Positions 29,078 to 50,280 of a stretch of DNA of 64,000 nucleotides are shown here, piece by piece. The position numbers were made by a program, and so were the translations under genes. Below the pieces are notes generated by a model. The model was given only the letters and a program-made list of their open reading frames with translations, searched no databases and was not told where the DNA came from. Within the stretch, counting starts at the first letter, position 1. Each line of letters begins with the position of its first letter. This DNA comes from Caballeronia sordidicola (GTDB lineage Bacteria; Pseudomonadota; Gammaproteobacteria; Burkholderiales; Burkholderiaceae), in contig NZ_JNFG01000003.1 of assembly GCF_000729995.1 (NCBI RefSeq), forward strand, positions 62,001 through 126,000. Reading direction: 5' to 3'.

Positions 29078-29190
29078 CATGCTCCCCGACCTGAAGGACG
29101 GAGATTCCCACTTCAAAGAATGCAACCCGACATCATCTCAAAGAGACATGGGACTTACGCTTTCTCCATGGGCTGACACCGCCAGCCCGG
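29058..29190 (-). ncRNA. Predicted omega RNA (reRNA) at the tnpB 3' end
   Basis: In IS200/IS605 elements the TnpB guide RNA is made from the tnpB 3' end and right end and runs into flanking DNA. Here the minus strand past the tnpB stop has the typical right-end hairpin (CTCCGTCC, TTCA, then GGTCGGGGAG) and ends ATGTCAA. The predicted guide is the next ~16 nt, which are the last codons of mdtC read antisense. The boundaries are estimates; the 5' end overlaps tnpB. Confidence 0.4.
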
Positions 29191-30304
29191 CGGCCAAAAC
29201 ATTGCGCGCAGCGTTGATGTCGCGATCGTGGATTGCCCCGCATTCCGGGCATGTCCACGCACGGACCTTTAACGACATTTTGGCGACCGTATGCGCGCAG
29301 TCACTGCATCGCTTGCTGGATGGATACCAGCGATCGATACCGATCAGCGTGCGCCCATACCACTGCGCTTTGTACTCTAATTGCCGCCTAAACTCGGACC
29401 AGCCTGCATCGCTGATCGACTTGGACAGGCAGCGGTTCTTCTGCATGTTCTTGACGGATAGGTTTTCGATGGCGATTACTTGGTTTTCGTTGATCAACCT
29501 GGTCGAAAGTTTGTGCAGGAAGTCCCTACGGGAGTCTGCCGTCCTGGCATGCATGCGTGCGACTTTGAACTTTGCCTTCTTGCGATTGGCCGAGCCCTTT
29601 TGCTTCTTCGCGAGGCGCCGCGACAACTTTGCGAGCTTCGCCTCGTTCTTGCGGAATACATTTGGCGCGGCAATCTTCTCGCCATTCGAAAGAATCGCGA
29701 AATGGGTAAGCCCTAGGTCAATACCAATCTTTCCAGTGGCGACCGGGCGCGTGCTCACCACGTCGTCGCACAGCATTGAGACGTGGTGCCGGCCCGCCGT
29801 GTCCTTCGACACGGTGACTGTCGTTACCCTGGCGCCTTTGGGGATCGCGCGTGACCAGCGGATCGCGAGTGGCTCATCCATCTTCGCGAGCTTGAGCACC
29901 GCACCGTCCCACCTGAAAGCGCTCGCGGTATATTCAGCCGACTGCGTGCCATCCTTGCGCCTGAATTTTGGATACTTCGCCCGCTTGGCGAAAAAATTGG
30001 TGAACGCAATTTGCAAATGCCGAAGCGCCTGCTGTACGGGGACCGAACTCACTTCGTTGAGCCAAATGTGCTCCTCAGTCTTTTTAAGCGCAGTCAACGC
30101 TGCGGAGGTCTCGTGATAACCCATGCGTTCCCCCCGCTCATTCCAAGCATCTGTGCGTTGCCGGAGCATGTGGTTATAGGCGAAGCGCGCACATCCAAAC
30201 GTTCGCGCAAGAATCGCTTCCTGCTCGGGTGTAGGGTAAAACCGGAATCGGTATGTGCGCTTAGCTTCCATTCATCAGAACATACCACTGAGATGTTTGA
30301 GGCT
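29074..30304 (-). mobile_element. IS200/IS605-family element carrying tnpB only (IS1341 group)
   Basis: About 1.23 kb. It contains a full-length tnpB and no tnpA. The right end (minus strand, low coordinates) has the conserved hairpin followed by GTCAA at 29078-29074. The left end has a subterminal hairpin, AACAT (30279-30283) paired with ATGTT (30293-30297), and is flanked by GTCAA (30305-30309 on the plus strand, TTGAC on the minus), a typical target and TAM sequence. It is inserted between mdtC and its outer membrane gene, in the opposite orientation to the operon. Ends are inferred from family rules. Confidence 0.75.
29138..30271 (-). CDS. tnpB: TnpB, RNA-guided endonuclease of an IS200/IS605 element
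   Basis: 377 residues. The RuvC-like catalytic triad looks intact: D185 (IGIDLGL), E269 (IAIENLSV) and D351 (HDRDINAARN). A four-Cys zinc finger is present (C322, C325, C341, C344, in CSDC and CPEC). The N-terminal block RTYRFRFYPTPEQEAILART and the helix-turn-helix region are typical. TnpB proteins cut DNA at sites matching the element's guide RNA next to a TAM, which helps keep the element in place. No mutation suggests inactivation. No partner TnpA lies nearby, so the element would need one in trans. Confidence 0.92.
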   Translation of the reverse strand: MEAKRTYRFRFYPTPEQEAILARTFGCARFAYNHMLRQRTDAWNERGERMGYHETSAALTALKKTEEHIWLNEVSSVPVQQALRHLQIAFTNFFAKRAKYPKFRRKDGTQSAEYTASAFRWDGAVLKLAKMDEPLAIRWSRAIPKGARVTTVTVSKDTAGRHHVSMLCDDVVSTRPVATGKIGIDLGLTHFAILSNGEKIAAPNVFRKNEAKLAKLSRRLAKKQKGSANRKKAKFKVARMHARTADSRRDFLHKLSTRLINENQVIAIENLSVKNMQKNRCLSKSISDAGWSEFRRQLEYKAQWYGRTLIGIDRWYPSSKRCSDCAHTVAKMSLKVRAWTCPECGAIHDRDINAARNVLAAGLAVSAHGESVSPMSL

Positions 30305-30381
30305 GTCAAGTGGAGAACGGAAGCAGCGTCAAGACCGTCTCCTTTCCTGCACCTTAAGGCCGAGGCTTCTCGGAGACACTG

Positions 30382-31890
30382 ATGAAGATTTCCTCCAAAC
30401 CCCTGGCCGCCGCGGCGGCCCTGCTGCTCGGCGGCTGCATGGTCGGTCCGGACTACCACCGGCCGCAGGTCAGCGTTCCTGCGACCTTCCGCGAGCTACC
30501 CGGCTGGACCCAGGCCGAGCCAAATGCGAGCGGGCCGAAAGGCGCATGGTGGACCGGTTTCAACGATCCGCTGCTTGACGAGCTTGAACCGCAGGTCGAG
30601 GTGTCCAACCAGACCGTGGCGCAGGACTATGCCAAATACCAGGAGGCAATCGCCGAGGTGAAGGTCGCACGCTCCGGCCTGTTTCCGGTCATTGGCGTCA
30701 CCGGCTCGGGCACCCGGCAGCGCAGCGCAACCGGCACGTCGAGCACCAGCGCGAGCCGGAGTTTAAGCGGCATCCAGACGGTGAACAATTCGGGCTCACT
30801 CGAGGGCAATGTCAGTTGGGCGCCCGACCTGTGGGGTTCGGTGCGCCGCACGATTGAAGAGAATGCCGCGACCGCGCAGGCCAGCGAAGCGACGCTCGCC
30901 AATGCGACGCTCTCCGAACAGATTGCGCTCGCGACCGCGGTGATCCAGTTGCGTACCAGCGACGCCGATATCGACTTGCTGCAGCAAACGGTCAAGGCGT
31001 ACCAGCACTTCCTGAGCGTGGTGTCTGACCAGGACAAGTTCGGCACCGTCGCGCCTTCGGACGTGATCACCGCGCGCACCCAGCTCGAAACCGCGCAGTC
31101 GAACCTGATTGCGCTCGGTGTGGCACGCGCCCAAAACGAACATGCGATAGCGGTGCTGGTCGGCAAGAACCCTGAGGACCTGGTCATCCCGCACAGCACC
31201 ACGATGCCCACGTTGCCGGCCATTCCGGTTGGCGTTCCTTCGACCCTGCTGCAGCGCCGGCCCGATATCGCGACGGCCGAACGCCAGATGGCGTCCCAGA
31301 ATGCAGCGATCGGGGTCGCGGTCGCGGCGTATTACCCGACGGTGTCGTTGTCCGCACTGGACGGCTTTACGCAGTCGCCATTGGGCGGATTGCTGCGGGT
31401 TGCCAACTACGTCTGGTCACTCGGCGGCAGCGCCACTGAAACGCTGTTCGACGGCGGCGAGCGAAGCGGCGAAGTCGCTGCGGCCAAGGCGGCTTATCAG
31501 GCGGCTGTCGCGAATTACCGCGGCACCGTGCTGACCGCGTTTGAAGATGTCGAGAATGATTTGTCCGGCTTGCGGATCCTGGCCGAGCAGTCCGACGCGC
31601 TCGATGCCGCCGTGCGCGATGCAAACCGCGGCGCCGAAATTGCCTTCAACGAGTATCAGGCCGGCACCGTGGACTACACCACCGTGGCGACCGCCCAAGC
31701 GACCCAGTTGAACAATCAGCAAACCGCGTTGAACGTGCAGCAGTCGAGATTGCTCGATGCCGCTACGCTGATTGGCGACCTGGGCGGCGGATGGTCGGAC
31801 AGCACGTTGCACGATCCGCGGCATCCGGTGGAAGCGGCTAGTGCTGCGAGTCAGGTGAGTGGGGCGCTGGCGAATCCTGTAAGTCAGTGA
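30382..31890 (+). CDS. Outer membrane efflux lipoprotein (OprM/NodT family) of the mdtABC system
   Basis: 502 residues. Lipoprotein signal with lipobox LLGGC (C19) followed by MVGPDYHRPQ, the standard start of OprM/NodT proteins. Two OEP repeats follow (first near VAQDYAKYQEAIAEVKVARS, second near GVPSTLLQRRPDIATAERQM). It should form the trimeric TolC-like channel for MdtABC. It lies 1.3 kb after mdtC only because of the inserted IS element; without it the gap would be about 70 bp. Transcription from the mdt promoter must now cross the element. Confidence 0.93.
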   Translation: MKISSKPLAAAAALLLGGCMVGPDYHRPQVSVPATFRELPGWTQAEPNASGPKGAWWTGFNDPLLDELEPQVEVSNQTVAQDYAKYQEAIAEVKVARSGLFPVIGVTGSGTRQRSATGTSSTSASRSLSGIQTVNNSGSLEGNVSWAPDLWGSVRRTIEENAATAQASEATLANATLSEQIALATAVIQLRTSDADIDLLQQTVKAYQHFLSVVSDQDKFGTVAPSDVITARTQLETAQSNLIALGVARAQNEHAIAVLVGKNPEDLVIPHSTTMPTLPAIPVGVPSTLLQRRPDIATAERQMASQNAAIGVAVAAYYPTVSLSALDGFTQSPLGGLLRVANYVWSLGGSATETLFDGGERSGEVAAAKAAYQAAVANYRGTVLTAFEDVENDLSGLRILAEQSDALDAAVRDANRGAEIAFNEYQAGTVDYTTVATAQATQLNNQQTALNVQQSRLLDAATLIGDLGGGWSDSTLHDPRHPVEAASAASQVSGALANPVSQ

Positions 31891-32215: not shown

Positions 32216-32812
32216 CTAATCCTGTTCACCGATCGTTTGAGCGTACGTCCTTCCGTACGGGTAGAAGAGTTCCTTTCGGCCTTGCTGCCATGCCGCCTTG
32301 AGTTCGGGCGCCGTGATGTCCCAGTCCGGACGGCATTTCTTCGTCACAGCACGTAGGTCCTGGCGCAGCTCTTCCATAGTGGGACGGCCGAAGAACCAGT
32401 AGCCGTTGTAGATCTGATAGATGACGAGACCTGGTTCGAGGACGATCGTGTAGGGAATCATCGGATTGTGGCCCGGGTCGGTGTATTCCGCGATGTCGAG
32501 GTCCTTCTGTACGGTACGCCGCGGGTCCGACAGGAAGGGCCAGTGGGCGCCCAGTCCGCTGCGGAATTCATTGGTCTCGGTGATGTTGTCGGTACTGATC
32601 GTGACCAGCCGGCAATAGCCGACCTCGAGCTCACGATGCAATTGAACAAGCCCTTCGTGCTGGCGGCGGTCCTTGGGGCAGAAACCTCCGCGGCTCAGGA
32701 CCAGAACCATGGGGTTCTGCCCTTGCAGGTCTGAGAGCCTCCGGTGTTTGCCGGTGTGATCGGACAGATCATAGTCGGGAAAAGTGGCCCCTGGAATCAT
32801 GTCGGGTCGCAT
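32216..32812 (-). CDS. Peroxiredoxin-like (AhpC/TSA, redoxin fold) protein
   Basis: 198 residues. The thioredoxin-like core starts at IPGATFPDYDLSDHTGKHRRLSDLQG, then VLVLSRGGFCPKDRRQ with a single Cys (C45) in the peroxidatic position, although the classical PxxxTxxC context is not conserved. The C-terminal region has aromatic residues (YQIYNGYWFFGRPT). It may reduce peroxides or be a thiol reductase of unknown substrate. It is divergent from the second lacI gene with a 238-bp gap, and no link to the sugar operon is evident. Confidence 0.82.
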   Translation of the reverse strand: MRPDMIPGATFPDYDLSDHTGKHRRLSDLQGQNPMVLVLSRGGFCPKDRRQHEGLVQLHRELEVGYCRLVTISTDNITETNEFRSGLGAHWPFLSDPRRTVQKDLDIAEYTDPGHNPMIPYTIVLEPGLVIYQIYNGYWFFGRPTMEELRQDLRAVTKKCRPDWDITAPELKAAWQQGRKELFYPYGRTYAQTIGEQD

Positions 32813-33050: not shown

Positions 33051-34070
33051 GTGGCAAAAGTACCCACGATTCGCGATGTCGCCGAACTGGCGGATGTGTC
33101 GAAGGCAACCGTTTCGCGCTACCTGAACGGTAGCCTCGCGCTGCCGCCCGAGACGGCCAAGCGCGTGGACGACGCCGTCGTCGCGCTCAACTATCGCCAG
33201 AACAGTCTGGCCCGGCGCCTGAGCATCGGTAGCAGCGAAACCATTGGCCTGGCCATGCCCGAAGTCGCTAACCCGTTCTTCGCGGAGCTCGCGGATGCCG
33301 TGGAGGAAGCCGCCTCCGAAAGCGGCTATGGCCTCGCGCTCTGCATCACGCGCAACAAGCTCGAGCGTGAGGCGCTTTATCTGCGCTGGCTCGATACCCG
33401 CCACCTCGACGGCCTGATCTTCGCGACCAATCGCCCGGACGACGGCTCGCTGCGCAGCCTGATTGGCGAGCGCGCCAATATCGTGCTGGTCGACGAGGAC
33501 GTGCCGGGTACCGACGTGCCCAAGGTGTTCGTCGACAATGTGGAAGGGAGCTATCTGGCGACTCGCCATTTGCTTGACGCGGGGCATCGGCGGATCGCGC
33601 ACGTGACCGGTCCCGAAACGCTGTTCACCGTGCAGGAACGGCTGGAAGGCTACCGCCGGGCGCTGGCCGAAGCACAAGTCCCCTTCGATACCAACCTTGT
33701 ACGTTACGGCGCCTACGACCGCCGCTTCGGGCGCGCCGCGGGTGCCGACCTGATCGCGTGCGCGCAACCGCCCACCGCGCTGTTCGCCACCAGCGACTAC
33801 ATCGCGGTCGGCGTGCTCGACGCCTTGCGCGAACGCGCGCTGGACGTGCCCGGCTACATGTCGATCGTCGGCTTCGATGACATGGAATTCGCCAGCCTCC
33901 TGATGCCGCCGATCACCACGGTGCGCCAGTCGGCCGCCGAGCTGGGCCGGACCGGCGTCGCCCTGCTGGTCGCGATGCTCACCGGCAAAGCCACGTCGTC
34001 GCCCACCGTGCGCCGCCTGCCGGTCGAGTTGATCGAACGCGCATCAGTCGGTCCGCCGCGCGCCGATTAG
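33051..34070 (+). CDS. LacI-family repressor of the BtpA/PfkB sugar operon
   Basis: 339 residues beginning with GTG. The HTH is VPTIRDVAELADVSKATVSRYLNG with the hinge NSLARRLSIGSSETIG. The sensor domain shows LAMPEVANPFFAELADAVEEA and LFATSDYIAVGVLDAL. It lies 201 bp upstream of the ABC binding protein and in the same direction; a palindromic operator and a sigma70-like promoter lie between them. It is therefore the likely local repressor of the eight-gene operon. The effector is unknown. Confidence 0.92.
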   Translation: MAKVPTIRDVAELADVSKATVSRYLNGSLALPPETAKRVDDAVVALNYRQNSLARRLSIGSSETIGLAMPEVANPFFAELADAVEEAASESGYGLALCITRNKLEREALYLRWLDTRHLDGLIFATNRPDDGSLRSLIGERANIVLVDEDVPGTDVPKVFVDNVEGSYLATRHLLDAGHRRIAHVTGPETLFTVQERLEGYRRALAEAQVPFDTNLVRYGAYDRRFGRAAGADLIACAQPPTALFATSDYIAVGVLDALRERALDVPGYMSIVGFDDMEFASLLMPPITTVRQSAAELGRTGVALLVAMLTGKATSSPTVRRLPVELIERASVGPPRAD

Positions 34071-34114
34071 CCTTCGCCTATCTCCGTACTTACCCTTATC
34101 TTTTTTTGAAACAG

Positions 34115-34143
34115 TTGACAGTCCAATACTCGCGGATTAATTT
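34115..34143 (+). promoter_or_regulatory. Predicted sigma70 promoter of the sugar operon
   Basis: TTGACA (34115-34120), 17-bp spacer, TAATTT (34138-34143). The -35 box is perfect and the -10 box weak. It leaves a ~120-nt leader before the binding-protein ATG and abuts the LacI operator. Confidence 0.55.
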
Positions 34144-34146
34144 TTA

Positions 34147-34158
34147 TAAACCGGTTTA
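34147..34158. promoter_or_regulatory. LacI-family operator of the sugar operon
   Basis: TAAACCGGTTTA, a 12-bp perfect palindrome with central CG, placed right after the -10 box over the expected transcription start. This is the classical repressor position. It is the only such palindrome I saw between the lacI gene and the operon. Confidence 0.7.
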
Positions 34159-34271
34159 CAAGCGAACGGCGCAATGTCGGTTGCGCCCATGAAGTCCTTC
34201 TTTAACCACCGGCCGCGGGGCGCTCATGGAGCGCGCGAGCCACGTCCGGATCAACCAGGAAAGGGATTCCA

Positions 34272-35216
34272 ATGAGCGCAGCAGTGAATTTCCGCCGTAT
34301 GACCGCCGTCTTGTTGAGCGCTACGTTGCTTTCCATTGCGGGCAGTGCGGTGGCGGCAGGCAAAAAGATCGCCATGGTGCAGATCAACCAGGAGGCGCTG
34401 TTTTTCACGCAGATGGACCAGGGAGCCCAGGCAGCTGCAAAAGCCGCGGGCGTCGAGCTTGCCATCTTCAACTCGAACAACGACCCGAGCGCGCAGAACA
34501 ACGCGATCGAAACCTATATCCAGCAAAAGGTCGATGCCATTCTCGTGGTCGCCATCGATGTGAACGGCATCAAGCCCGCCATCACGGAAGCCAAGAAAGC
34601 CGGCATTCCGGTGGTGACCATCGACGCTATCGTCGACGGTGACAACTCAGTGCAAGTCGGCGTGGACAACAAGAAAGTCGGCGAAGACATCGGCAAGTAC
34701 ACGGCGAATTACATCAAGACAAATCTTGGCGGTAACGCGAACATTGGCGTGGTCGGTGCGCTGAATTCGTTCATCCAGAACGTGCGCCTCGATGGCTTCA
34801 AGGCGGGCATCGCGACGGTGCCGGGCGCAAAGATAGTCTCTACCGTCGATGGGCAAAACGTTCAGGATCAAGCGCAAACCGCCGCCGAAAACCTGATTTC
34901 CGCCAATCCGAATTTGCAGATTGTCTATGCAACCGGTGAGCCTGCATTGATCGGTCTCGTTGCGGCAACATCGGCACAGGACGCCACCGGCCGCGTGAAG
35001 ATTGTCGGTTGGGACTTGAGCGCCCAGGCCATCAAGGGCATTGATGCCGGCTTCGTGACAGCAGTGGTTCAGCAGGACCCGGAAGGCGAAGGCCACGCCG
35101 CCCTGAATGCCGCGATGAAGCTCATCAACAAGCAGCCGGTCCAGAAAAACATCTCGGTACCGGTGACGATCGTGACCAAGGCGAACGTCGGTAAATACCG
35201 GGCCATCTTCAAGTAA
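34272..35216 (+). CDS. Periplasmic sugar-binding protein (RbsB type)
   Basis: 314 residues. Signal peptide with a hydrophobic core and cleavage after SAVA (MTAVLLSATLLSIAGSAVA). The mature domain shows the type-1 pattern of ribose/galactose binding proteins: IAMVQINQEALFFTQMDQGAQAAAKAAG, AILVVAIDVNGIKPAI and VVQQDPEGEGHAALNAAM. A D-ribose-like pentose or other small sugar is expected, not more specific. First gene of the CUT2-type operon. Confidence 0.93.
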   Translation: MSAAVNFRRMTAVLLSATLLSIAGSAVAAGKKIAMVQINQEALFFTQMDQGAQAAAKAAGVELAIFNSNNDPSAQNNAIETYIQQKVDAILVVAIDVNGIKPAITEAKKAGIPVVTIDAIVDGDNSVQVGVDNKKVGEDIGKYTANYIKTNLGGNANIGVVGALNSFIQNVRLDGFKAGIATVPGAKIVSTVDGQNVQDQAQTAAENLISANPNLQIVYATGEPALIGLVAATSAQDATGRVKIVGWDLSAQAIKGIDAGFVTAVVQQDPEGEGHAALNAAMKLINKQPVQKNISVPVTIVTKANVGKYRAIFK

Positions 35217-35271
35217 GCCCGTCAAGTAAGCCCTTCAACCAGGTCCGCTTCGGCTTCCTCGGAGGATCAAT

Positions 35272-36060
35272 ATGCAAACCGATGCGGCAACGCCGCGCGT
35301 TCGCATGCAGAACATCGCCAAGAGTTATGGCGCCGTGCAGTCGTTGCGCGGCGTTGACCTGCACGTGATGCCCGGTGAAGTGCTCGGGCTCGTTGGCGAC
35401 AACGGCGCGGGCAAGTCGACCGTCTCGAAGGTGCTGTCGGGTGCGGTGATACCGGACAGCGGCAGCATCGAAATAGACGGCAAGCGGGTCAGTTTCTCCG
35501 ACCCGGGCGATGCTCGCGCGCATCACATCGAAATGGTTTATCAGGATTTGTCGCTGTGCAATACGGTCGATGTCGCCGGCAACCTGTTCCTCGGCCGCGA
35601 GCCCATGCGCCGCATCTGCGGTGTGCAGGTGCTCGATCATCGCAAGATGCATCACGACGCGCGCGACATGCTGAACAACCTCGGTATCCGCATCCCGAGC
35701 ACGAAGCTGGATGTGGAAAACCTGTCGGGCGGCCAGCGTCAGGCCATCGCGATTTCGCGGGCCGTATCGTTCGATCCGAAAGTGTTGATCATGGATGAAC
35801 CCACGGCCGCGCTGGCCGTGGCCGAAGTCGAAGCGGTGCTGGAACTCGTGCGCACGATCAGCGAGCGCGGTGTCAGCGTGATCCTGATCAGCCACCGCCT
35901 GCAGGACCTGTTCCTGGTGTGCGATCGCATCAGCGTGATGTACGAAGGGCAGAACGTCGCGGACCGGAAGATCGGCGAGACGAATCTGGAGGAGATCGTC
36001 GATCTGATCGTGGGTCACAAGTTCAGCGCTCGCTCGGCACGCGCGCTTGCGGAGGATTGA
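35272..36060 (+). CDS. Sugar ABC transporter ATPase (single-domain, CUT2)
   Basis: 262 residues. Walker A is GDNGAGKSTVSKVLSG, the signature LSGGQRQAIAISRAVSFDP, Walker B LIMDEPTAALAVAEVEAV, and the switch His in ILISHRLQDLF. It is a single nucleotide-binding domain, about half the length of RbsA, so two copies would pair. It ends one base before the permease start, indicating coupling. GGAGG-type Shine-Dalgarno before the ATG. Confidence 0.93.
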   Translation: MQTDAATPRVRMQNIAKSYGAVQSLRGVDLHVMPGEVLGLVGDNGAGKSTVSKVLSGAVIPDSGSIEIDGKRVSFSDPGDARAHHIEMVYQDLSLCNTVDVAGNLFLGREPMRRICGVQVLDHRKMHHDARDMLNNLGIRIPSTKLDVENLSGGQRQAIAISRAVSFDPKVLIMDEPTAALAVAEVEAVLELVRTISERGVSVILISHRLQDLFLVCDRISVMYEGQNVADRKIGETNLEEIVDLIVGHKFSARSARALAED

Positions 36061-36061
36061 C

Positions 36062-37066
36062 ATGGAACTCGCCATGCACGACAACAAGTCCAAGGCGCCG
36101 CGCCTGTCGCTCAGGCACTTGCTCGGCCGCAATGCAGGCGTAGCGAGCATCGCAGCATTCTTCATTGTCTGCGCCCTCGCCTTTACGCTCACGACGCACA
36201 CATTTCTCACCGCCGGCAACCTGCTCAACGTGCTCCGTCAAAGCGCGCCGCTGCTGATCGTCGCCACGACCATGACGCTCGTCATCACGACGGGCGGTAT
36301 CGACTTGTCGATCGGCTCCACGCTCGCACTGGTGGGCGCGCTCTCGGCCATCGCGTTGCGCGCCGGCGCGCCGGGCATCGTGGTGCTGCTCGGTGGCCTC
36401 TCGCTGGGTGCGCTGATCGGCGCCATCAACGGCTACTTCATCGCGTTTGCGGGAATGCCTGCGTTCATCGTGACATTGGGGACACTGTCGGTCGTGCGCG
36501 GTATCGCGTTGCTGATCACACAGGGATTTTCAGTGCCGATCGAAAACGACGGCTGGTTCGTCGAACTCGGCCGCGGCCGTTTGCTCGGCGTGCCAACGCC
36601 CGCGGTCATCGCGATCGTCACGCTGCTCGCGGGATGGGTCACGCTGCGGCATACGCGGTTCGGGCGCTATGTCACCGGCATAGGTACGAACTCGGAAGGC
36701 GTGCGGCGCGCGGGTGTCAACGTGCGCGCCGTCACCCTGAAAGTCTATGTCCTCAGCGGCGCAGCAGCGGGTCTCGCCGGACTTATCACAACGGCGCGGC
36801 TCGGCAGCGGGTCGTCGAATCAGGGTGTAGGTTTTGAACTTGCCGTGATCGCTGCGGTTGTGCTCGGCAGTACCGATCTCTTTGGCGGCAGGGGCACCAT
36901 TCTCGGCACCTTGCTGGGAGCGCTGACCATCGCAGTGCTCGGCAACGGGCTGATCCTGATCAACGTCTCGCCGTTCTATACGCAGATCATCCAGGGCGCG
37001 ATCATGCTGCTTGCGATATGGCTCAATACGCGCATCTTCTCGGCGCAACGGCGCAAGAAAGGCTAA
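36062..37066 (+). CDS. Sugar ABC transporter permease (RbsC type)
   Basis: 334 residues from the ATG at 36062; a frame starting 15 bp upstream overlaps the ATPase and is not used. It has about eight to ten membrane segments, and the RbsC-like motifs LVITTGGIDLSIGSTLALVGAL, GMPAFIVTLGTLSVVRGIAL and GRYVTGIGTNSEGVRRAGVNV. It forms the inner-membrane channel with the ATPase. The next gene starts 3 bp after its stop. Confidence 0.94.
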   Translation: MELAMHDNKSKAPRLSLRHLLGRNAGVASIAAFFIVCALAFTLTTHTFLTAGNLLNVLRQSAPLLIVATTMTLVITTGGIDLSIGSTLALVGALSAIALRAGAPGIVVLLGGLSLGALIGAINGYFIAFAGMPAFIVTLGTLSVVRGIALLITQGFSVPIENDGWFVELGRGRLLGVPTPAVIAIVTLLAGWVTLRHTRFGRYVTGIGTNSEGVRRAGVNVRAVTLKVYVLSGAAAGLAGLITTARLGSGSSNQGVGFELAVIAAVVLGSTDLFGGRGTILGTLLGALTIAVLGNGLILINVSPFYTQIIQGAIMLLAIWLNTRIFSAQRRKKG

Positions 37067-37069
37067 GCG

Positions 37070-38149
37070 ATGAGTTCGATCTTCCGCCGCGACGCGCCGT
37101 TGCCAATCGGCATCGGCAGCGGCCACGTAATGACCGTGCTAGGGCCACTCCCCATCGCGCAGATGGGGGTCACGCTGATGCATGAACACATCCTGCTGGA
37201 TGCATCGGGGAAATGGGTGCCGCCCAGTTGCTGCAGCGACCGGTTCATCGGTGAGCAGAAGGTTCATATCGGCATTCTGGGTGCGCTGCGGATGAATCCG
37301 CTGATGAACCGCGACAACTGCCAGCTGTTCGACGCCGACGTAGCCGTTGAAGAACTGATGCGCTTTCGCGAACTGGGCGGCAATACGGTGATCGATCCGA
37401 CCAATCTCGGCATTGGACGAGACCCCGCCGCGCTGCAACGGATCTCACGCCGCACCGGCCTGAACATTGTGATGTCGACGGGTTTTTATCTCGAACCCTC
37501 GCATCCGGATTACGTGAAACACAAGTCTGTCGATGAACTGGCCGCTCAACTGATTGCCGATGTTGGCGGCGCTGCTGAAAAGCCCGACGTGGTCGCCGGA
37601 ATGATCGGCGAGATCGGCGTCTCGGCAGCGTTCACGGCCAACGAGGAAAAGTCGCTGCGCGCGGCCGCGCGAGCGAGTGCGGCAACGCATGTGCCTTTGT
37701 CCGTGCATCTGCCCGGCTGGGTCCGGCACGGGCATCGCGTGCTCGATATCGTGGCGCAAGAAGGCGCCGACCTGAACCACACCGTGCTGTGCCACATGAA
37801 CCCGAGTCACATGGACGTGGAGTACCAGCATTCACTCGCCGAACGCGGCGCCTGGCTCGAGTACGACATGATCGGCATGGAGTATTTTTACGCCGACGAG
37901 AACGCGCAATCGCCCTCTGATGAAGAGAATGCCCGGGCGATCAAGGCGTTGATCGATGCCGGATTTATTGACAGGATCCTCATGTCGCAGGACGTGTTCA
38001 TGAAGATCATGCTGACGCGTTTTGGCGGCCACGGTTACGGCTACATCCTCAAGTATTTCGTGCCTCGTCTGCGACGTCATGGCGTGACGAACGAACAGAT
38101 TGAAACAATGATGATTGCGAACCCGGCGAGAGTTTTCTCGGGCAGATAA
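37070..38149 (+). CDS. Phosphotriesterase-family metal-dependent hydrolase
   Basis: 359 residues, TIM-barrel amidohydrolase fold. Metal ligands are visible: HxH in VTLMHEHILLD (H38, H40), the bridging position in GMIGEIGVSAAF (Glu, where classical phosphotriesterase has a carboxylated Lys), His in VPLSVHLPGW, His in VLCHMNPSH, and Asp in ILMSQDVF. Glu at the bridge is known in the PHP-type branch. The substrate is likely a lactone or phosphorylated sugar lactone, given the operon; it is not a proven paraoxonase. It follows the permease by 3 bp. Confidence 0.88.
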   Translation: MSSIFRRDAPLPIGIGSGHVMTVLGPLPIAQMGVTLMHEHILLDASGKWVPPSCCSDRFIGEQKVHIGILGALRMNPLMNRDNCQLFDADVAVEELMRFRELGGNTVIDPTNLGIGRDPAALQRISRRTGLNIVMSTGFYLEPSHPDYVKHKSVDELAAQLIADVGGAAEKPDVVAGMIGEIGVSAAFTANEEKSLRAAARASAATHVPLSVHLPGWVRHGHRVLDIVAQEGADLNHTVLCHMNPSHMDVEYQHSLAERGAWLEYDMIGMEYFYADENAQSPSDEENARAIKALIDAGFIDRILMSQDVFMKIMLTRFGGHGYGYILKYFVPRLRRHGVTNEQIETMMIANPARVFSGR

Positions 38150-38237
38150 CGGCAGTTCGCACCACACTATGTGAACCGGTTCCACCTTGCGCCGCGTGCC
38201 GCCGACACGGTCCGCCGCGCGCTTAAGGAGCACATGC

Positions 38238-38996
38238 ATGACCAAATCTGTTTTGCTCGCCGGAGAGAGCTGGACGAGCATGTCGACGCACATCAAGGGC
38301 TTCGACCAGTTTCCAACCGTGACCTATCAAAACGGCGCCACGATCTTCCTGGATATCTTCAAGGACAGTGACTATGCGATCACGCACATGCCGAGCCACG
38401 AAGCGCAGGAAGCCTTCCCCTCCACGCTCGACGGATTGCTTGCTTATGACGCGATCATTCTCTCGGACATCGGCGCGAATACGTTGCTGCTGCATCCTGA
38501 TACGTGGGTCAGGAGCCAGCGCACACCGAACCGTCTCAAGCTGCTGCGAGAGTACGTCGAGGCCGGACGCGGGCTGATGATGATCGGCGGGTATCTGAGC
38601 TTCCAGGGCATCAACGGCAGTGCGCGGTTCCGCAACACGCCGGTCGAGGATGTGTTGCCGGTCACCTGCCTGCCTTACGACGATCGTGTTGAGGTCCCGG
38701 AAGGATTCACCGCGAGCGTGGTTGCTTCGCACCCGGTAGTCGAGGGGCTTGGAACGCAGTGGCCTCACTTGCTGGGTTATAACGAAGTGCAGTTGAAAGC
38801 GGGGGCGACACTGATCGCGACGGTGCCCGAAACGGGCCACCCTTTGTTAGTCGCCGGGACACACGGCCGCGGACGCACGCTTGCGTGGACCAGCGATATG
38901 TCAAGTCACTGGTTGCCACCGGAGTTCTCCGCCTGGGAAGGCAACGCGCGGCTATGGACGAACTGTCTCGACTGGTTGACCTCGGATGAAAAATGA
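38238..38996 (+). CDS. Glutamine-amidotransferase-like (GATase1-like) protein without catalytic Cys
   Basis: 252 residues from the ATG at 38238 (AAGGAG 7 nt upstream). It has the class I amidotransferase-like flavodoxin fold: MTKSVLLAGESWTSMSTHIKGFDQF, LLAYDAIILSDIGANTLLLHP, EAGRGLMMIGGYLSFQG and GRTLAWTSDMSSHW. The nucleophile elbow that in true GATases is GxCxG reads GGYLSFQG, so the usual Cys is absent. The family is therefore probably not an amidotransferase but a ThuA-like sugar-related protein. It overlaps the following kinase gene by ATGA. Confidence 0.85.
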   Translation: MTKSVLLAGESWTSMSTHIKGFDQFPTVTYQNGATIFLDIFKDSDYAITHMPSHEAQEAFPSTLDGLLAYDAIILSDIGANTLLLHPDTWVRSQRTPNRLKLLREYVEAGRGLMMIGGYLSFQGINGSARFRNTPVEDVLPVTCLPYDDRVEVPEGFTASVVASHPVVEGLGTQWPHLLGYNEVQLKAGATLIATVPETGHPLLVAGTHGRGRTLAWTSDMSSHWLPPEFSAWEGNARLWTNCLDWLTSDEK

Positions 38997-39904
38997 ACGC
39001 GAATGAAGCGCGCGTTTGCGTTATCGGCAATGCGGCAATCGACCAGGTGTTTCGGGTCGATCACTTGCCGCTTGCCGGTGAGACTTCGCTTGCTATCGAT
39101 ACGTTGCACGACTTCGGCGGCAAGGGTGCGAATCAGGCGGTGATGGCACAACGCGCGGGCGCCCAGGTGCAGTTGTTTGCTGCGCTCGGTGACGACGCCG
39201 ATGGCGATCGTTTCCTGGCCCGGCTCGTGGAAGAAGGTATCGATGCCCGTCATGTCAAGCGCTTGCCGTGCATGACGGATATCTCAATCGTGACGGTCGA
39301 CCAGCGAGGCGAGAATACGATCGTGACTCGCAACGATGCAGCGGCTCGCTATGTGCCCTCGCCGGGCGCGGTACTCGATGCAACCCGCAGCGGCGACTGG
39401 ATAGCCATGCAGGGCAACCTGGGCGAAGCCATCACAGCCGAGATCTTGCGTCACGCGCATGTGGGCGAACGTCGTGCCTTGCTCAACCCCGGACCCGTTT
39501 GCTTCGATTGCCGCCCGTTGCTGAACCACGTCGACGTTCTCGTGGTCAATCGCGTAGAGGCCGCGACGCTGACCCGGCTGGAGAACCCCGAGGACGCTGC
39601 ACGTTCGCTGCGGGCATCGGGCGCAGGCGATGTCATCGTCACGCTGGGTTCCGAGGGTGTCCTCTGGTGCAGCCACGAGCACTTGGTGCTGATACCGGCA
39701 AAGACGGCCAACGCCATCGACACCGTGGGTGCCGGCGACGCTTTCTGCGGTGCCCTCCTCGCGGCACTTGCGCAGGGCATAGCCATGACGTCTGCGTTGC
39801 AGCGTGCGCAAACCGCCGCCGCGTTCGCTGTCGCAAGGAAGGGTACGCAGGCCGCTTTCCCCAGCCGCGCAGAATTGTTCGCGCTATTCCACTCTCTAAC
39901 CTGA
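38993..39904 (+). CDS. PfkB-family carbohydrate kinase
   Basis: 303 residues. N-terminal pattern VIGNAAIDQVFRVDHLPLAGETS and GGKGANQAVMAQRAGAQV; C-terminal signature DTVGAGDAFCGALLAAL with the catalytic Asp near residue 249. Ribokinase-like fold, predicted to phosphorylate a pentose or other small sugar in the cytosol with ATP. It overlaps the GATase-like gene by 4 bp and precedes the BtpA gene by 11 bp, indicating translational coupling in one pathway. Confidence 0.92.
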   Translation: MNANEARVCVIGNAAIDQVFRVDHLPLAGETSLAIDTLHDFGGKGANQAVMAQRAGAQVQLFAALGDDADGDRFLARLVEEGIDARHVKRLPCMTDISIVTVDQRGENTIVTRNDAAARYVPSPGAVLDATRSGDWIAMQGNLGEAITAEILRHAHVGERRALLNPGPVCFDCRPLLNHVDVLVVNRVEAATLTRLENPEDAARSLRASGAGDVIVTLGSEGVLWCSHEHLVLIPAKTANAIDTVGAGDAFCGALLAALAQGIAMTSALQRAQTAAAFAVARKGTQAAFPSRAELFALFHSLT

Positions 39905-39915
39905 ATTCAATCGAT

Positions 39916-40755
39916 ATGAACACTTCTTCTGGCGTTGGGCGCGGACGCACCGATTGCGTCGAACAGATTTTTGGACGTCCGCGCGGCGTGGTGATCGGTG
40001 TGATCCACTGCCCGGCGTTTCCCGGTTCGCCACGGTATCAAGGCGCATCGAGCGAGGCGATGTATAGCGCCGCACTCGCCGATGCCGTGGCCTATGCGAA
40101 AGGCGGCGTCGACGGACTGATCGTCGAGAATCACGGCGACGTGCCGTTTTCGAAGCCGGACGATATCGGTCCGGAGACATCGGCGTTCATGTCTGTTGCC
40201 GCCGATAGAATTGCCCGGGAAACCGGCTTGCCGATTGGCATCAACGTACTTGCAAACGCGGCGCTTCCCGCGCTTGCAATCGCGGCCGCAAGCGGCGCGG
40301 CGTTCGTGCGCGTGAATCAGTGGGCTAATGCGTATGTCGCGAACGAAGGTCTGATAGAAGGCGCGGCGGCGCTTGCGTTGCGCTACCGGGCAAAGCTGCG
40401 CGCCGACGGCATCCGCGTTTTCGCCGATGCCCACGTCAAGCATGGCGCGCATGCAATCGTATCGGACCGGTCGCTGGAAGAGCTGGTACGCGACGTCGAG
40501 TTCTTCGATGCCGATGCGATCATCGCGACGGGCCAACGCACGGGCGATGCGGCCAGTAGCGACTATTTGCGGCAGATCAGGAATGCGACCACGTTGCCGC
40601 TGCTCGTCGGCAGCGGTTGCACGGAGCGCAACATCGCGGAAATCCTGTCGGTGGTTGACGGTGTGATTGTCGCCAGTTCATTGAAGGTCGGGGGCGTATG
40701 GTGGAATCCCGTCGACGAAAACAAGGTCCGCAGTTTTATGCAGGCAGCGCGGTAG
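39916..40755 (+). CDS. BtpA/SgcQ-family protein
   Basis: 279 residues from the ATG at 39916. TIM-barrel family with the blocks GVIHCPAFPGSPRYQGAS, YAKGGVDGLIVENHGDVPF, INVLANAALPALAIAAASGAAFVRVNQWANAYV, VFADAHVKHGAHAI and IVASSLKVGGVWWNPVD. The family includes BtpA, named for photosystem I biogenesis in cyanobacteria, and SgcQ of an uncharacterised E. coli sugar operon. In a heterotrophic proteobacterium with a PfkB kinase beside it, a role in sugar-phosphate metabolism is more likely. The reaction is not established. The open frame upstream of 39916 is a shadow of the kinase. Confidence 0.9.
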   Translation: MNTSSGVGRGRTDCVEQIFGRPRGVVIGVIHCPAFPGSPRYQGASSEAMYSAALADAVAYAKGGVDGLIVENHGDVPFSKPDDIGPETSAFMSVAADRIARETGLPIGINVLANAALPALAIAAASGAAFVRVNQWANAYVANEGLIEGAAALALRYRAKLRADGIRVFADAHVKHGAHAIVSDRSLEELVRDVEFFDADAIIATGQRTGDAASSDYLRQIRNATTLPLLVGSGCTERNIAEILSVVDGVIVASSLKVGGVWWNPVDENKVRSFMQAAR

Positions 40756-41002
40756 GGGATTGGTTTTCGCTCGCACTGGTGGATCCGTCGAGTCGACTCT
40801 TGGGTGGCTGCTGATCCATGGCTTCGTCCGAGGTTATCTTCGCGAATTAGTCTATGTCATCGGCATATGAGCGCGCAGTTCAACGAACCGCTGGATGAGA
40901 CTAGTCGATGGCCGCACCCGTTCACCCATTGATGCCGCCTTTTGTTCGATGGCATTATTCGTCATGGTCGTCCCCATCCGAAACGCTTCAGCGAGCCCGC
41001 GA
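40756..41002. other. Intergenic gap before the LysE gene
   Basis: 247 bp with no gene. The open frame of the LysE gene extends upstream to 40895, but that part does not match the family. Confidence 0.35.
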
Positions 41003-41635
41003 ATGTCCTTTCACACCTGGTTTCTTTTCGCCATAGCGTATCTGGTCACCACCATTTCGCCAGGACCCAACGTGCTGCTCGTCATCCGCAACACGGTTCG
41101 ATTCGGCTGCCACGGCACCGCTGCGACCATCGCCGGGAATCTGCTGGCTCAGTTGGTCGTGGTGATGCTGGTGGCGCTGGGCGTGGGCGCGGTGCTTGCA
41201 GCCATGCCGCCATTGTTTCTCGCCATGAAGATCCTGGGAGCGGTTTATCTCATGGTCCTGGGCGTAAAGCAGTTGAGAAGCGGGAAGCCTAAAGCGGCCG
41301 CATCGGTCAACGCAACGCCCACCCACGCTCTCGACAAGCGCAAAATTTTTCGGGAAGCGTTATTGGTGTCGGGAAGCAACCCCAAGACGTTGATCTTCCT
41401 TTCTGCGTTCATGCCGCAATTCATCGTGCATGACCAACCGCTGCCCACGCAGTTCATCGTGATGTACCTGACCATCGCTTGCACCGTAGCGCTGGTTCAC
41501 ACCGTCTACTCGTTCGGGGTGCGCCGTATCCATGACGGGCTTGGCACAAGCCGGTGGATTGAAGCCCTCAAGCGTTGCAGCGGTTTGGTTTTTTTCGGCC
41601 TGGGCATCAAGCTTTTAACGGCAAGGCAGGCTTGA
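41003..41635 (+). CDS. LysE/RhtB-family amino-acid exporter
   Basis: 210 residues from the ATG at 41003. It starts MSFHTWFLFAIAYLVTTISPGPNVLLVIRNTVRFG, the diagnostic LysE/RhtB N-terminus with SPGPN, followed by five further hydrophobic segments and SGSNPKTLIFLSAFMPQFI. This is a secondary exporter of amino acids or homoserine-like compounds in the inner membrane. It stands alone after the sugar operon with a 247-bp gap. Confidence 0.92.
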   Translation: MSFHTWFLFAIAYLVTTISPGPNVLLVIRNTVRFGCHGTAATIAGNLLAQLVVVMLVALGVGAVLAAMPPLFLAMKILGAVYLMVLGVKQLRSGKPKAAASVNATPTHALDKRKIFREALLVSGSNPKTLIFLSAFMPQFIVHDQPLPTQFIVMYLTIACTVALVHTVYSFGVRRIHDGLGTSRWIEALKRCSGLVFFGLGIKLLTARQA

Positions 41636-41750
41636 GGAGCTGCCGTGCGCGGCTCGCGGACAACCCCTAGTTAAGAACCTGTTTTTGAGCGTCGAGACAT
41701 TCGTGAAGGACACGGGGCCCGGCAACAACGCCGAGGCAGCCTGGCGGCAT

Positions 41751-42029
41751 TCAATTCGGTGAGACGTTGGCGGGTGCTCGCGAAATCAGTTTGGTGTTGT
41801 TCGATTTGAGCGGGTGCGTAGTGTGCGTCTGCACCGCCTCCGTTTTTGGAAACGCAAGCGTATTGCTCGCCAGAAGCTGGCGCCCCGTCGGAATGATTTG
41901 AGTCCCGATAACTATCCCCAGCAATCCCACCAGAGCAACCATGGGCGGTGCCGGCGAGCGAACACGAATAAGACTGTATATCGCCCCGGCGAGAATGCCG
42001 CCAAGGAGCGAAAGAATATAAGGCTTCAT
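41751..42029 (-). CDS. XapX-domain (DUF1427) small membrane protein
   Basis: 92 residues from the ATG at 42029 (GAGGAA upstream). The XapX core MKPYILSLLGGILAGAIYSLIRVRSPAPPMVALVGLLGIVIG consists of two short hydrophobic helices with the conserved RSPAPP turn. The C-terminus is polar. Family function is unknown; members are frequently next to amidohydrolase, isochorismatase or DoxX genes. This copy lies downstream of the isochorismatase-family gene on the same strand, beyond a hairpin. Confidence 0.82.
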   Translation of the reverse strand: MKPYILSLLGGILAGAIYSLIRVRSPAPPMVALVGLLGIVIGTQIIPTGRQLLASNTLAFPKTEAVQTHTTHPLKSNNTKLISRAPANVSPN

Positions 42030-42088
42030 CGGTAGAAATTCCTCGGACTCGCGTATCAGCGTGCTTGATGATTTTGACATTGGGCGAA

Positions 42089-42124
42089 AGGCCCGCACCA
42101 GAATGATTATTCTGGTGCGGGCCT
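42089..42124 (-). terminator. Strong hairpin after the isochorismatase-family gene
   Basis: A perfect 16-bp stem, AGGCCCGCACCAGAAT (42089-42104) and its complement (42109-42124), with a 4-nt loop lies 33 bp after the stop at 42157. On the minus strand it is followed by TTTCG, a short U-tract. It probably terminates the isochorismatase transcript before the XapX gene. Confidence 0.65.
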
Positions 42125-42156
42125 CGCATCTCAACTGCTCAGCGTGCGTAGTTACG

Positions 42157-42846
42157 TCAGGTCTTCGCCGGGACTGGAGCGAGCGATTCGTGCTTTGTCT
42201 CGGTACGCTGGGGGGCGTTATGAACCCTCGTGTAGGCGTAGTCGACGCCCATTCCGTATGCACCCGAATGCTCCCTCACGATTTCCATCACCGCGTCGTA
42301 CGTTTCTCTGCGCGCCCAGTCGCGCTGCCACTCGAGCAGGACCTGTTGCCACGTGACCGGGACGGCGCCGGCCTGGACCATTCGCTGCATTGCGAAGTCA
42401 TGAGCGTCTTTCGACGTGCCGCCAGATGCATCGGCGACCATGTAGATCTCGTAGCCGCCTTCGAGCATCGCGCAGAGCGCGAAGGTGGTGTTGCAGACCT
42501 CCGTCCACAGGCCGGACACGACGACCTTGTTCCGACCGTTCTTCTTGAGTGCGTCACGAACCTTCTGGTCGTCCCACGAGTTCATCGAGGTTCGCTCGAG
42601 AGTGGGCTGGTCGGGGAACACGTCGAGCAGTTCCGGGTACGTGAAGCCGGAGAAGCTTTCGCTTTCGACCGTCGTTATAGTCGTCGGGATGTTGAAAGCC
42701 TTCGCCGCCTTCGCCAGTCCGACGACGTTGTTCTTCAGTACTTGCCGGTCGATTGACTGGACGCCAAAAGCCATCTGAGGCTGCTGGTCGATGAAAATGA
42801 TCTGGCTGTTGGTGGGAGTAAGTACCTCCAGTTTCTCTTGGCTCAT
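42157..42846 (-). CDS. YcaC-like isochorismatase-family cysteine hydrolase
   Basis: 229 residues. The catalytic triad region is visible: Asp20 in IIFIDQQPQMAFGV, a Lys, and Cys118 in SGLWTEVCNTTF with the preceding cis-peptide motif. The C-terminal segment MVQAGAVPVTWQQVLLEWQRDWAR is the YcaC-type extension. Members hydrolyse amides such as N-carbamoyl compounds or are of unknown substrate. It is divergent from the XapX-amidohydrolase operon and probably functionally linked. Confidence 0.9.
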   Translation of the reverse strand: MSQEKLEVLTPTNSQIIFIDQQPQMAFGVQSIDRQVLKNNVVGLAKAAKAFNIPTTITTVESESFSGFTYPELLDVFPDQPTLERTSMNSWDDQKVRDALKKNGRNKVVVSGLWTEVCNTTFALCAMLEGGYEIYMVADASGGTSKDAHDFAMQRMVQAGAVPVTWQQVLLEWQRDWARRETYDAVMEIVREHSGAYGMGVDYAYTRVHNAPQRTETKHESLAPVPAKT

Positions 42847-43324
42847 GATGTCCTCTCTTCGTATGAGGTTTCGACAAAACGTCGCTCCAGACTTGAGCGC
42901 CAGGCGCGCTCTCGCGTTGCTCTAGTGACTCCACGAACGACGTGTTTCTCGCTGGAAAAACAGGACATGAGCAATGGCGTCTCGTGGTCTAAAATTAGCA
43001 TAGCCCACATTGCCCGGATGTGAAGTTGTCGATAGTGATATCAGGGTTTTTTGTATGGGGTCGATGCCAACAAGACCCTTTTCTTTGGAGATTGAAAGTC
43101 CTAAGCTGCTAGGATACCGAAATAGTTTCGGTCCGCAGGTCGCCGGGTTCTGCTTACATTTTTCGGTCGGTGTGTGTATTTCCCGGAGAGTTGCATGCGC
43201 TATCCGGGCGGGCGTCCTTTGACGCCCGGTCATCGGTCGTCGCATCAGTGCAGGTACTTCTTTTTTCGGCTTGTCATCGTCGTCGCGAGTGGTTGCTTTC
43301 GGTGTACCAGAGGAGGGTTGGTCG
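42847..43324. other. Divergent intergenic region
   Basis: 478 bp between the YcaC-like gene (minus) and the XapX operon (plus). Promoters for both should lie here. I note only a small hairpin (CCGAAA, 3 nt, TTTCGG) near 43118; no convincing -35/-10 pairs or gene. Confidence 0.4.
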
Positions 43325-43615
43325 ATGAAAGCTTATGTGCTTTCGCTTCTGGCTGGAATCCTTGTAGGCGTGGTCTATAGCTTGATTGGCGTGACGTCGC
43401 CAGCCCCTCCTGTTGTCGCCTTGGTGGGCCTTCTAGGCATACTCGCGGGCGAGCAAATTTTCCCGGTTGCAAAAAAGATGCTTTCCGGTGCCAACTTTCG
43501 TTTGGCCTGGAAGGAGGAGCATTGCGACCAACACCTGTTTGGGTCTTTGCCTGGCCGGAACTCCGGAAGTCCTCGGCCCATGGCGGAGGTAACGTCCGAG
43601 GAGAAGCGTTCATGA
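43325..43615 (+). CDS. XapX-domain (DUF1427) small membrane protein
   Basis: 96 residues from the ATG at 43325 (GAGGAGGG upstream). The XapX core MKAYVLSLLAGILVGVVYSLIGVTSPAPPVVALVGLLGILAGEQ is intact, followed by a polar tail with FGSLPGRNSG. The stop overlaps the amidohydrolase start as ATGA, so the two are translationally coupled. A decayed copy of this protein occurs at 55743. The family has no proven biochemical role. Confidence 0.85.
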   Translation: MKAYVLSLLAGILVGVVYSLIGVTSPAPPVVALVGLLGILAGEQIFPVAKKMLSGANFRLAWKEEHCDQHLFGSLPGRNSGSPRPMAEVTSEEKRS

Positions 43616-45501: not shown

Positions 45502-45511
45502 AGAGGGGGCC

Positions 45512-45952: not shown

Positions 45953-45976
45953 AAAAACAGAACAGGAAACTCACTC

Positions 45977-48128: not shown

Positions 48129-48188
48129 TCCTGGTCTCCATTATTTCGCCAATCGCACGGTCTCACGACCTATTCGATTCGCAATACT

Positions 48189-50244: not shown

Positions 50245-50280
50245 GGCTTCAACAGCAACGGCGCCATGTTGCTACGGCGG

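Follow-up and report, generated by a model that had tools for sequence, protein, structure and literature searches.

A LacI-associated operon joins a BtpA/SgcQ-family protein to an RbsB-type importer, a PfkB kinase and hydrolase families in Caballeronia sordidicola

Organization of the operon

The window analysed here is a 64,000-nucleotide stretch of the Caballeronia sordidicola genome, in which positions 33051–40755 carry eight genes, all on the (+) strand and headed by that of a LacI-family repressor (Table 1). The gene calls, strand and outer coordinates of the preliminary description proved to be right, and each of the eight products scores above the curated cut-off of its Pfam family. 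The junctions had been said to span a few bases, which the measured gaps bear out at only four of the seven: ATPase to permease (1 bp), permease to PTE (3 bp), GATase1-like gene to PfkB (a 4-bp overlap) and PfkB to BtpA (11 bp), whereas 201, 55 and 88 bp, respectively, separate the repressor from the binding protein gene, the latter from the ATPase gene, and the PTE gene from the GATase1-like gene.

Table 1. Genes and regulatory features of the locus, numbered by position in the window
Feature	Position	Strand	Family or basis
LacI-family repressor, GTG start	33051..34070	+	PF00356/PF13377 (LacI + Peripla_BP_3)
TTGACA, possible -35	34115..34120	+	read by eye; no good -10
Operator TAAACCGGTTTA	34147..34158		exact 12-mer
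RbsB-type periplasmic binding protein	34272..35216	+	PF13407 (Peripla_BP_4), 185 bits
Single-domain ABC ATPase	35272..36060	+	PF00005 (ABC_tran)
Permease, RbsC-like	36062..37066	+	PF02653 (BPD_transp_2), 137 bits
PTE-family metallohydrolase, 3k2g/PTER branch	37070..38149	+	PF02126, 226 bits
Second operator-like site TGAACCGGTTCC	38172..38183		one-mismatch scan
GATase1-like protein	38238..38996	+	PF07090 (GATase1_like), 410 bits
PfkB/ribokinase-like sugar kinase	38993..39904	+	PF00294, 186 bits
BtpA/SgcQ-family TIM-barrel-like protein	39916..40755	+	PF03437, 236 bits

The importer had been called RbsB-type, and this holds for the binding protein, the closest solved chain to which is 5hsg (316 bits, listed with no ligand), and for the RbsC-like permease; the ATPase, however, is a single-domain protein of 262 residues and not a two-domain RbsA, its matches to AlsA/RbsA-type models being confined to the first half of these. 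With its RbsB/RbsC-like importer and ribokinase-like kinase, the operon resembles rbs, but it differs in this ATPase and in its extra hydrolases, and we reject a ribose operon on the scores against the corresponding models: 98 of 337 bits for the RbsB equivalog, 238 of 398 for RbsC, 223.8 of 299.65 for ribokinase (TIGR02152) and 225 of 382 for RbsR. The repressor falls below all of the NCBIfam cut-offs listed, RbsR being one example, and MQLE of E. coli ribokinase corresponds to MQGN in the kinase.

Operator and promoter

The perfect operator described previously was confirmed as an exact match, and it is the sole exact copy of this 12-mer in the genome; the wider pattern, with one mismatch, occurs there at 85 places, as against 37 for a reversed-pattern control. 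Within the window, allowing one mismatch gives two sites, where the chance mean is 0.18 and two or more were seen in 1 of 100 shuffles. The second of these, which had been missed, lies upstream of the GATase1-like gene and recurs in six of the eight congeneric clusters with a linked BtpA (it is missing from L148 and L151); it was not found in L094, L095 or L149. In relatives, the same operator lies upstream of the binding protein or ATPase gene. Pantoea L145 and the enterobacterial-looking L115–L117 carry it, as GTAAACCGGTTTAC, in two copies 170–172 bp apart and before the transporter genes, and L124 carries one copy. The repressor itself is 91–96% identical in five congeners (L096–L100), and L115–L117 and L124 encode a LacI protein of 49–56% identity at the corresponding place. 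The promoter that had been proposed was not confirmed, because the -10 region, 17 bp downstream of the perfect TTGACA, matches TATAAT at just three of six positions; a consensus scan of the region returned 0 sites, where shuffled sequences gave a mean of 2.5.

Conservation of the gene set

The gene set is real and widely shared among bacteria, rather than specific to this strain. Among the best 80 of 535 loci, picked by BtpA similarity and, hence, close kin by selection, the PTE, GATase1-like, PfkB and BtpA genes occur together in all 80. In a phylum sample of 398 genomes, BtpA is above the cut-off in 19 and full-length PF07090 (E < 1e-60) is present in 16, with both in 13; two of these 13 (G182 and G376) have BtpA of the SgcQ type only, and PF07090 is found without BtpA in G252, G410 and G115. 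Moreover, all 11 genomes with a window-type BtpA (at least 45% identity) have PF07090 (hypergeometric 5e-18, relatedness ignored), and in a sample of 58 genomes of the genus, our own included, all 11 with PF07090 have BtpA, three of them with the pair apart. In these three congeners (L094/L091, L095/L092 and L149/L150), an importer–PTE–GATase1-like module is separated from a PfkB–BtpA module, and the BtpA part has its own LacI, importer and TenA genes. The former module is also seen in G410, whereas the two are together in rhizobia, Paracoccus, Roseivivax and Pantoea. A near-identical cluster was not found in E. coli genomes, using the L115 DNA as query at megablast sensitivity.

Thus, the neighbourhood search that had been suggested finds PTE, PfkB and BtpA together well beyond the strain, and the idea of one LacI-controlled uptake-and-catabolism pathway gains support from the conserved gene content and the conserved operator. 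Our searches of the open-access literature returned no paper that links the cluster to a defined substrate, or that assigns a reaction to the operon or to a catabolic BtpA.

Amide hydrolases in related clusters

The enzyme set described previously is correct for the window, but it missed further amide hydrolases in the relatives, namely, M20 enzymes, TenA and amidase or penicillin amidase. In 88 core loci (a set without L096–L100 and loci under 12 kb), an M20 protein of the carbamoylase type lies downstream of BtpA in 65, and TenA is present in six; they never share a locus, where 4.4 would be expected, and neither is nearby in 17 of these loci or in the window. The M20 protein of L011 passes TIGR01879 (386 bits; cut-off 204). 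In Rhizobium leguminosarum (L133), TenA directly follows BtpA, and in A. vitis (L144), M20 takes that place; the two BtpAs are sisters (SH-aLRT 90, under the tool's mark of 95). Between two sister lineages, M20 carbamoylase and TenA are exchanged for one another, although each shows four changes on the BtpA tree, so that their exclusivity rests on few lineages. (The tree leaves out L096, L098–L100 and short loci, and L042 and L056 are labelled 'none' on it, though their contigs end just after BtpA.) Among other clusters, L114 encodes an amidase, L094, L095 and L149 encode a penicillin amidase, and L115–L117, L124, L134, L145 and L148 encode an ArgE-type M20 protein; Pfam was run on L094, L114 and L115.

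The TenA proteins of L091 and L093 match PF03070, and score 33 and 40 bits against a thiaminase II cut-off of 130. Nine of ten cluster sequences were retained in an alignment (L128 fell out), which has no canonical TenA as a position reference; it shows no invariant Cys, and an invariant Glu within AEWMY. The strain's own genome contains one strong TenA match (157 bits) and three weak ones, all on other contigs.

A precedent exists for such an exchange of two unrelated folds within one pathway. YlmB is an M20 enzyme. Plant TenA_E is described as an amidohydrolase that fills the role of YlmB (PMC5635689), and both are reported to act on formylaminopyrimidine (PMC5635689, PMC10470507). The same pair of folds is exchanged directly after BtpA between L133 and L144; the difference is that the L091 and L093 TenAs are far under the thiaminase II cut-off and that no thiamin genes were recognised in the clusters.

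Enzymes of the operon

The PTE-family protein scores 416 bits to 3k2g, 229 to 3rhg and 194 to 9efa, and has the two-metal pattern HxH-E-H-H-D of the PTER-like branch: His38, His40, Glu181, His213, His242 and Asp308, which we take to be the metal ligands of the family, align with and are conserved in all three structures. The mammalian member of this branch, PTER, is described in PMC11374699 as an amidase that hydrolyses N-acetyltaurine, with two His and one Glu being named. At 194 bits, PTER is only distantly related, but it belongs to the same branch and retains the metal-ligand positions, and the window enzyme is, on sequence grounds, probably an amidohydrolase of the 3k2g/PTER type. Against the phospho-furanose lactonase model it reaches 71 of 630 bits.

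The next product does belong to the GATase1-like family, as had been noted, which in Pfam is PF07090; 'GATase1-like' should not, however, be read as amidotransferase, because no Cys is conserved across a 20-row alignment, and we reject glutamine amidotransferase activity on this basis. Its solved relatives, 3soz and 2gk3 (209 bits), are named merely as cytoplasmic proteins.

Membership of the last product in the BtpA/SgcQ family is clear (PF03437, 236 bits, cut-off 30; TIGR00259, 217 bits, cut-off 153), but SgcQ itself, with which it had been paired, falls in another subfamily, 24–33% identical to the window type; in addition, the window protein reaches 202 of 400 bits for the Photosystem I biogenesis BtpA equivalog (NF045918). 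Among 14 control genomes, five, ranging from E. coli to Methanocaldococcus, gave family matches, three of them above the cut-off; the open-access literature searched yielded no reaction for the family. The predicted model (pLDDT 85.6) has alternating strands and helices, and a match to TrpA covers a C-terminal stretch of the protein (best E 9e-7), whereas the matches to TrpF, HisF and ThiE are not significant (E 0.07–0.22). In TrpA-like barrels, the C-terminal end is the phosphate-binding end.

Proposed function

The E. coli sgc operon, like that described here, combines a BtpA-family protein with a sugar-type operon and a hydrolase (SgcX). According to PMC13343008, it is up 16–25-fold on nitrogen-containing compounds from which ammonium is predicted to be set free, its induction includes purine-linked conditions (inosine and hypoxanthine), and a pentitol link is suggested; the same source has sgc mutants growing normally, which counts against the reading that we favour below, and in 2026 still calls the substrate unknown, which PMC5797941 terms an unknown sugar. 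Differences go beyond the subfamily of BtpA: neither PTE nor PF07090 occurs in any of the eight SgcQ-type loci (5.7–19 kb each), among which an M42 peptidase was confirmed by Pfam only in L105 and further ones were picked out by eye, and Pfam finds no PTS, SgcE epimerase or SgcX-type hydrolase among the ten genes of 32.2–41.6 kb in the window.

Another parallel may lie with the Amadori operons frl (fructoselysine) and fra (fructose-asparagine), which combine a PfkB kinase, an importer and an amide hydrolase with a step freeing a sugar phosphate from nitrogen. The first three have counterparts here. On a Ti plasmid, moreover, a PF07090 gene lies near genes annotated as fructoselysine 6-kinase, SIS protein and hydantoinase/oxoprolinase. 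That last step is the work of an SIS deglycase in frl and fra; Pfam finds none among the eight genes, and by analogy BtpA would instead free the sugar phosphate from a phosphorylated glycosyl-amine.

From these features we infer, tentatively, a LacI-repressed catabolic operon for an amide-bearing sugar–nitrogen conjugate. The conjugate would enter via the RbsB-type ABC importer, and the incoming compound would release the repressor from its AACCGGTT operators. Working as a two-metal amidohydrolase of the PTER type, the PTE-family enzyme would take off an acyl or amide part, a further amide step falling in many relatives to an M20 enzyme or to a TenA without an invariant Cys; the ribokinase-like PfkB would then phosphorylate the sugar. 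Finally, the phosphorylated intermediate would be the substrate of BtpA, whose simplest reaction would be to cleave or rearrange the C–N bond and so yield a sugar phosphate of central metabolism. The order of hydrolysis, phosphorylation and BtpA reaction is plausible.

An unlikely special case of this scheme is that the ligand is a ribosylated N-heterocycle, such as a modified or damaged nucleoside, from which PfkB would make the 5'-phosphate and BtpA would split the N-glycosidic bond to give ribose 5-phosphate, with PTE, M20 and TenA dismantling the base. The kinase/glycosidase pair for pseudouridine is a known analogue, and the ribokinase-like kinase, the RbsB-like importer and the purine-linked induction of sgc are all consistent with it, as are one BtpA locus (L118, 52%) with an IU-nucleoside hydrolase gene about 8 kb off and PF07090 genes beside annotated nitrilase and ABC importer genes in L142 and L146 (the latter also with a 'Zn-dependent hydrolase'). 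The core set, however, has no base-specific enzyme, L118 shows neither PTE nor PF07090, and the importer family is presumably of the sugar type rather than the nucleoside (Bmp) type. Catabolism of a plain sugar, pentitol or sugar lactone, by a PTE lactonase, PfkB and a BtpA isomerase or aldolase, appears similarly improbable: lactonases do exist in the PTE family, L137 has PF07090 in an allose-type operon, and sgc has its pentitol link, but amide hydrolases would then be incidental neighbours, whereas they recur in these clusters, and the PTE is closest to the 3k2g/PTER branch, not to the lactonase model.

That the two modules serve different substrates is suggested by their separation in the three congeners and by the BtpA-less module of G410; retention of BtpA in every PF07090 genome of the genus sample, the joint occurrence from rhizobia to Pantoea and the second operator inside the operon make this very unlikely. 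The case for salvage of thiamin breakdown products, in which TenA and M20 would act as on formylaminopyrimidine and PfkB as an HMP-kinase-like enzyme, is weak, and we regard it as highly improbable: the shared TenA_E/YlmB substrate speaks for it, but the TenA scores, the lack of recognised thiamin genes and the sugar-type importer do not, and Rfam matched nothing in the window, hence no TPP riboswitch there, and only two tRNAs in 13 other loci.

The operon gives one subfamily of the long-mysterious BtpA/SgcQ proteins a defined setting of kinase, importer and amide hydrolases, in which the ligand, the kinase product and the BtpA reaction can be tested in turn. It is conceivable, if rather doubtful, that the BtpA/SgcQ proteins form a novel class of enzymes, cleaving or rearranging the C–N bond of phosphorylated sugar–nitrogen conjugates, and that the operon represents a third kinase-plus-deglycase route, next to the SIS-based frl and fra, for an amide-bearing compound, spread among plant- and soil-associated bacteria through shuffling of its modules.

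Operon structure and operators

The window contains a sugar-type catabolic operon of a known kind; one of its enzyme families, BtpA, has no assigned reaction in the open-access papers searched. The layout of eight genes on one strand given in the preliminary description is confirmed. The close spacing also described there holds for ABC-permease-PTE and GATase-PfkB-BtpA and fails elsewhere: from LacI to BtpA, the junctions are 201, 55, 1, 3, 88, -4 and 11 bp, which confines tight coupling to these two groups. The proposed promoter was not recovered, as no site passed the consensus scan; the operator is indeed a perfect palindrome, with its sole exact copy in the genome at this position. The fastest-changing gene is pfkB, with identities to the clusters of five congeners (L096-L100) of 81-86% versus 91-98% for the others, and of 35-47% versus 53-80% in 80 loci from relatives.

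Features of the window and of related loci
Feature	Coordinates	Strand	Remarks
Eight-gene operon	33051-40755	+	
pfkB	38993-39904		
Operator	34147-34158		TAAACCGGTTTA
Second operator-like site	38172-38183		TGAACCGGTTCC; 88-bp gap 5' of GATase1-like gene
RND efflux/outer-membrane-factor genes	23281-31815		left of operon
345-aa ORF	29079-30116		between RND pump and outer-membrane-factor genes
AhpC/TSA-type redoxin gene	32216-32812	-	between efflux and LacI genes
LysE-like gene	about 40917-41638		
Apparent insertion	41639-61551		~20 kb, relative to L097, L098
Sequence matched after LysE-like gene in L097, L098	61519/61552 onward		
PF07090 neighbourhood, pTiA47a	L143 9004-18762		
PF07090 gene of G236	L117 2105-2840		match in two pieces
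Related operator	L122 9510; L123 9221		TTGAACCGGTTCAT

The operator lies 5' of the binding-protein gene in the window, L096-L100, L094, L095, L149, L148, L151 and L124, and the inner site recurs in six of the eight congeneric clusters with a linked BtpA. In L115-L117 and L145, two copies stand 170-172 bp apart, 5' of the ABC gene, a spacing that would fit looping; a GCGC-centred form is found 5' of LacI in L093 and L144. An XRE-cupin regulator is present in 76 of the 80 loci; the one tested is PuuR-like, although under cut-off. A related operator occurs in a LacI-PF07090-importer operon (L122, L123), followed by a gene that is M20-like by eye, without PTE, PfkB or BtpA.

Protein families

All eight proteins score above Pfam cut-offs, and among the NCBIfam matches listed (25 of 189 for the ATPase), only that of the BtpA/SgcQ subfamily passed its cut-off. 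The importer ATPase is single-domain. The PTE is nearest to 3k2g (416 bits), followed by Pmi1525 and PTER, and alignment with these three shows all six metal positions to be retained; the PTER paper describes PTER as an N-acetyltaurine hydrolase and 3K2G as the top solved match to its model (PMC11374699). No conserved Cys was found in the PF07090 protein across 20 aligned rows. PfkB is ribokinase-like but under the ribokinase cut-off, with MQGN versus MQLE at the corresponding place in Escherichia coli ribokinase.

The BtpA model alternates strands and helices (pLDDT 85.6), and TrpA matches its C-terminal third (E down to 9e-7); TrpF, HisF and ThiE gave no significant match. Invariant across 27 BtpAs, including those of the SgcQ type, are H31, N72, G108, N110, F130, R185, G210, G234 and K257.

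Co-inheritance

In the best 80 of at least 535 relatives, picked by BtpA similarity, PTE, GATase1-like protein, PfkB and BtpA are encoded together in all 80 loci, and with all three importer genes in 77; L064 and L075 have their GATase1-like gene in a divergent unit. Judged by title, these loci belong to Hyphomicrobiales genera, except for one Azospirillaceae MAG (L077). A less biased sample, 398 Pseudomonadota genomes, holds BtpA over cut-off in 19 (G111 weakly), full-length PF07090 (E<1e-60) in 16 and both in 13, the two being within 10 kb in nine of the latter; G182 and G376, also among the 13, have solely SgcQ-type BtpA. Every genome with window-type BtpA (45% identity or more; 11/11) has PF07090, including G255 and G386 with BtpA at 52-54% (hypergeometric 5e-18, kinship ignored). 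Within the genus (58 genomes, that of the window included), 11 genomes have PF07090 and 12 have full BtpA, and each of the 11 has both. The PF07090 gene of G236 may be broken, since it matches in two pieces.

Modules and exchange of amide hydrolases

Eight genomes of the genus have a single cluster including a linked BtpA, and three (G013, G019, G461) have two: importer-PTE-GATase1-like with a penicillin amidase, and, elsewhere, LacI-importer-TenA-BtpA-PfkB, which in G016 stands alone. Both sets are united in L115 and L116, taken as enterobacterial, and in Pantoea L145 (TenA-BtpA, PfkB, binding protein, LacI, ABC, permease, PTE, GATase1-like and ArgE-type M20). Rhizobium leguminosarum L133 has one run, LacI-SBP-ABC-permease-PTE-GATase1-like-BtpA-TenA-ribokinase; Paracoccus and Roseivivax share this gene set but with PfkB reversed.

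Once five near copies are set aside, 88 loci longer than 12 kb have the four-gene core: 65 have an M20 carbamoylase-type gene, six TenA, none both and 17 neither; an ArgE-type M20 is present in one of the last group. L114 has an amidase, and further loci a penicillin amidase. On a tree of 103 BtpAs, each label requires four changes, so the exclusivity reflects few events; the BtpAs of L133 (TenA) and L144 (M20) are sisters (SH-aLRT 90). For thiamin salvage, TenA_E has been described as filling the role of YlmB (PMC5635689); by this analogy, an N-formyl or N-acyl amide would be a natural common substrate type.

Proposed function

Searches of open-access literature found no function for this gene set. 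Co-inheritance, operators, families and hydrolase swap are established here, and we favour catabolism of an amide-bearing sugar-nitrogen conjugate under LacI repression: the PTE and its partners would open amides, PfkB would then phosphorylate the sugar and BtpA would take the phosphorylated product. The frl/fra operons, for Amadori compounds, comprise a kinase, a deglycase and an amide hydrolase; on this analogy, BtpA would be a C-N bond enzyme. A PF07090 homologue, just 39-40% identical and separated by an intervening LysR gene, is found on Ti plasmid pTiA47a near hydantoinase/oxoprolinase, SIS, fructoselysine 6-kinase and ABC importer genes, possibly an opine set; the neighbourhood hints at a frl/fra-like route.

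A nucleoside version of the pathway is the main special case of this reading, and plain sugar or lactone catabolism the main contrary one. Independent support for the nitrogen theme comes from the E. coli sgc operon, which includes SgcQ and, in a 2026 atlas, is up 16-25-fold on compounds that contain nitrogen and are predicted to yield ammonium (PMC13343008). Its authors suggest pentitol chemistry, leaving the substrate open, and report that sgc mutants show no growth defect (PMC13343008).

Flanking sequences

The efflux genes left of the operon have 82-85% DNA identity to genes in L091, L092 and L150 that abut a LacI-importer-TenA-BtpA-PfkB cluster; these shared neighbours indicate that one chromosomal site holds different BtpA clusters, by strain. 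Matches to the pump and outer-membrane-factor genes are nearly adjacent in those three loci. To the right, some 20 kb of the window looks like an insertion, since in L097 and L098 no more than about 0.15-0.4 kb separates the LysE-like gene from sequence that matches the far side.
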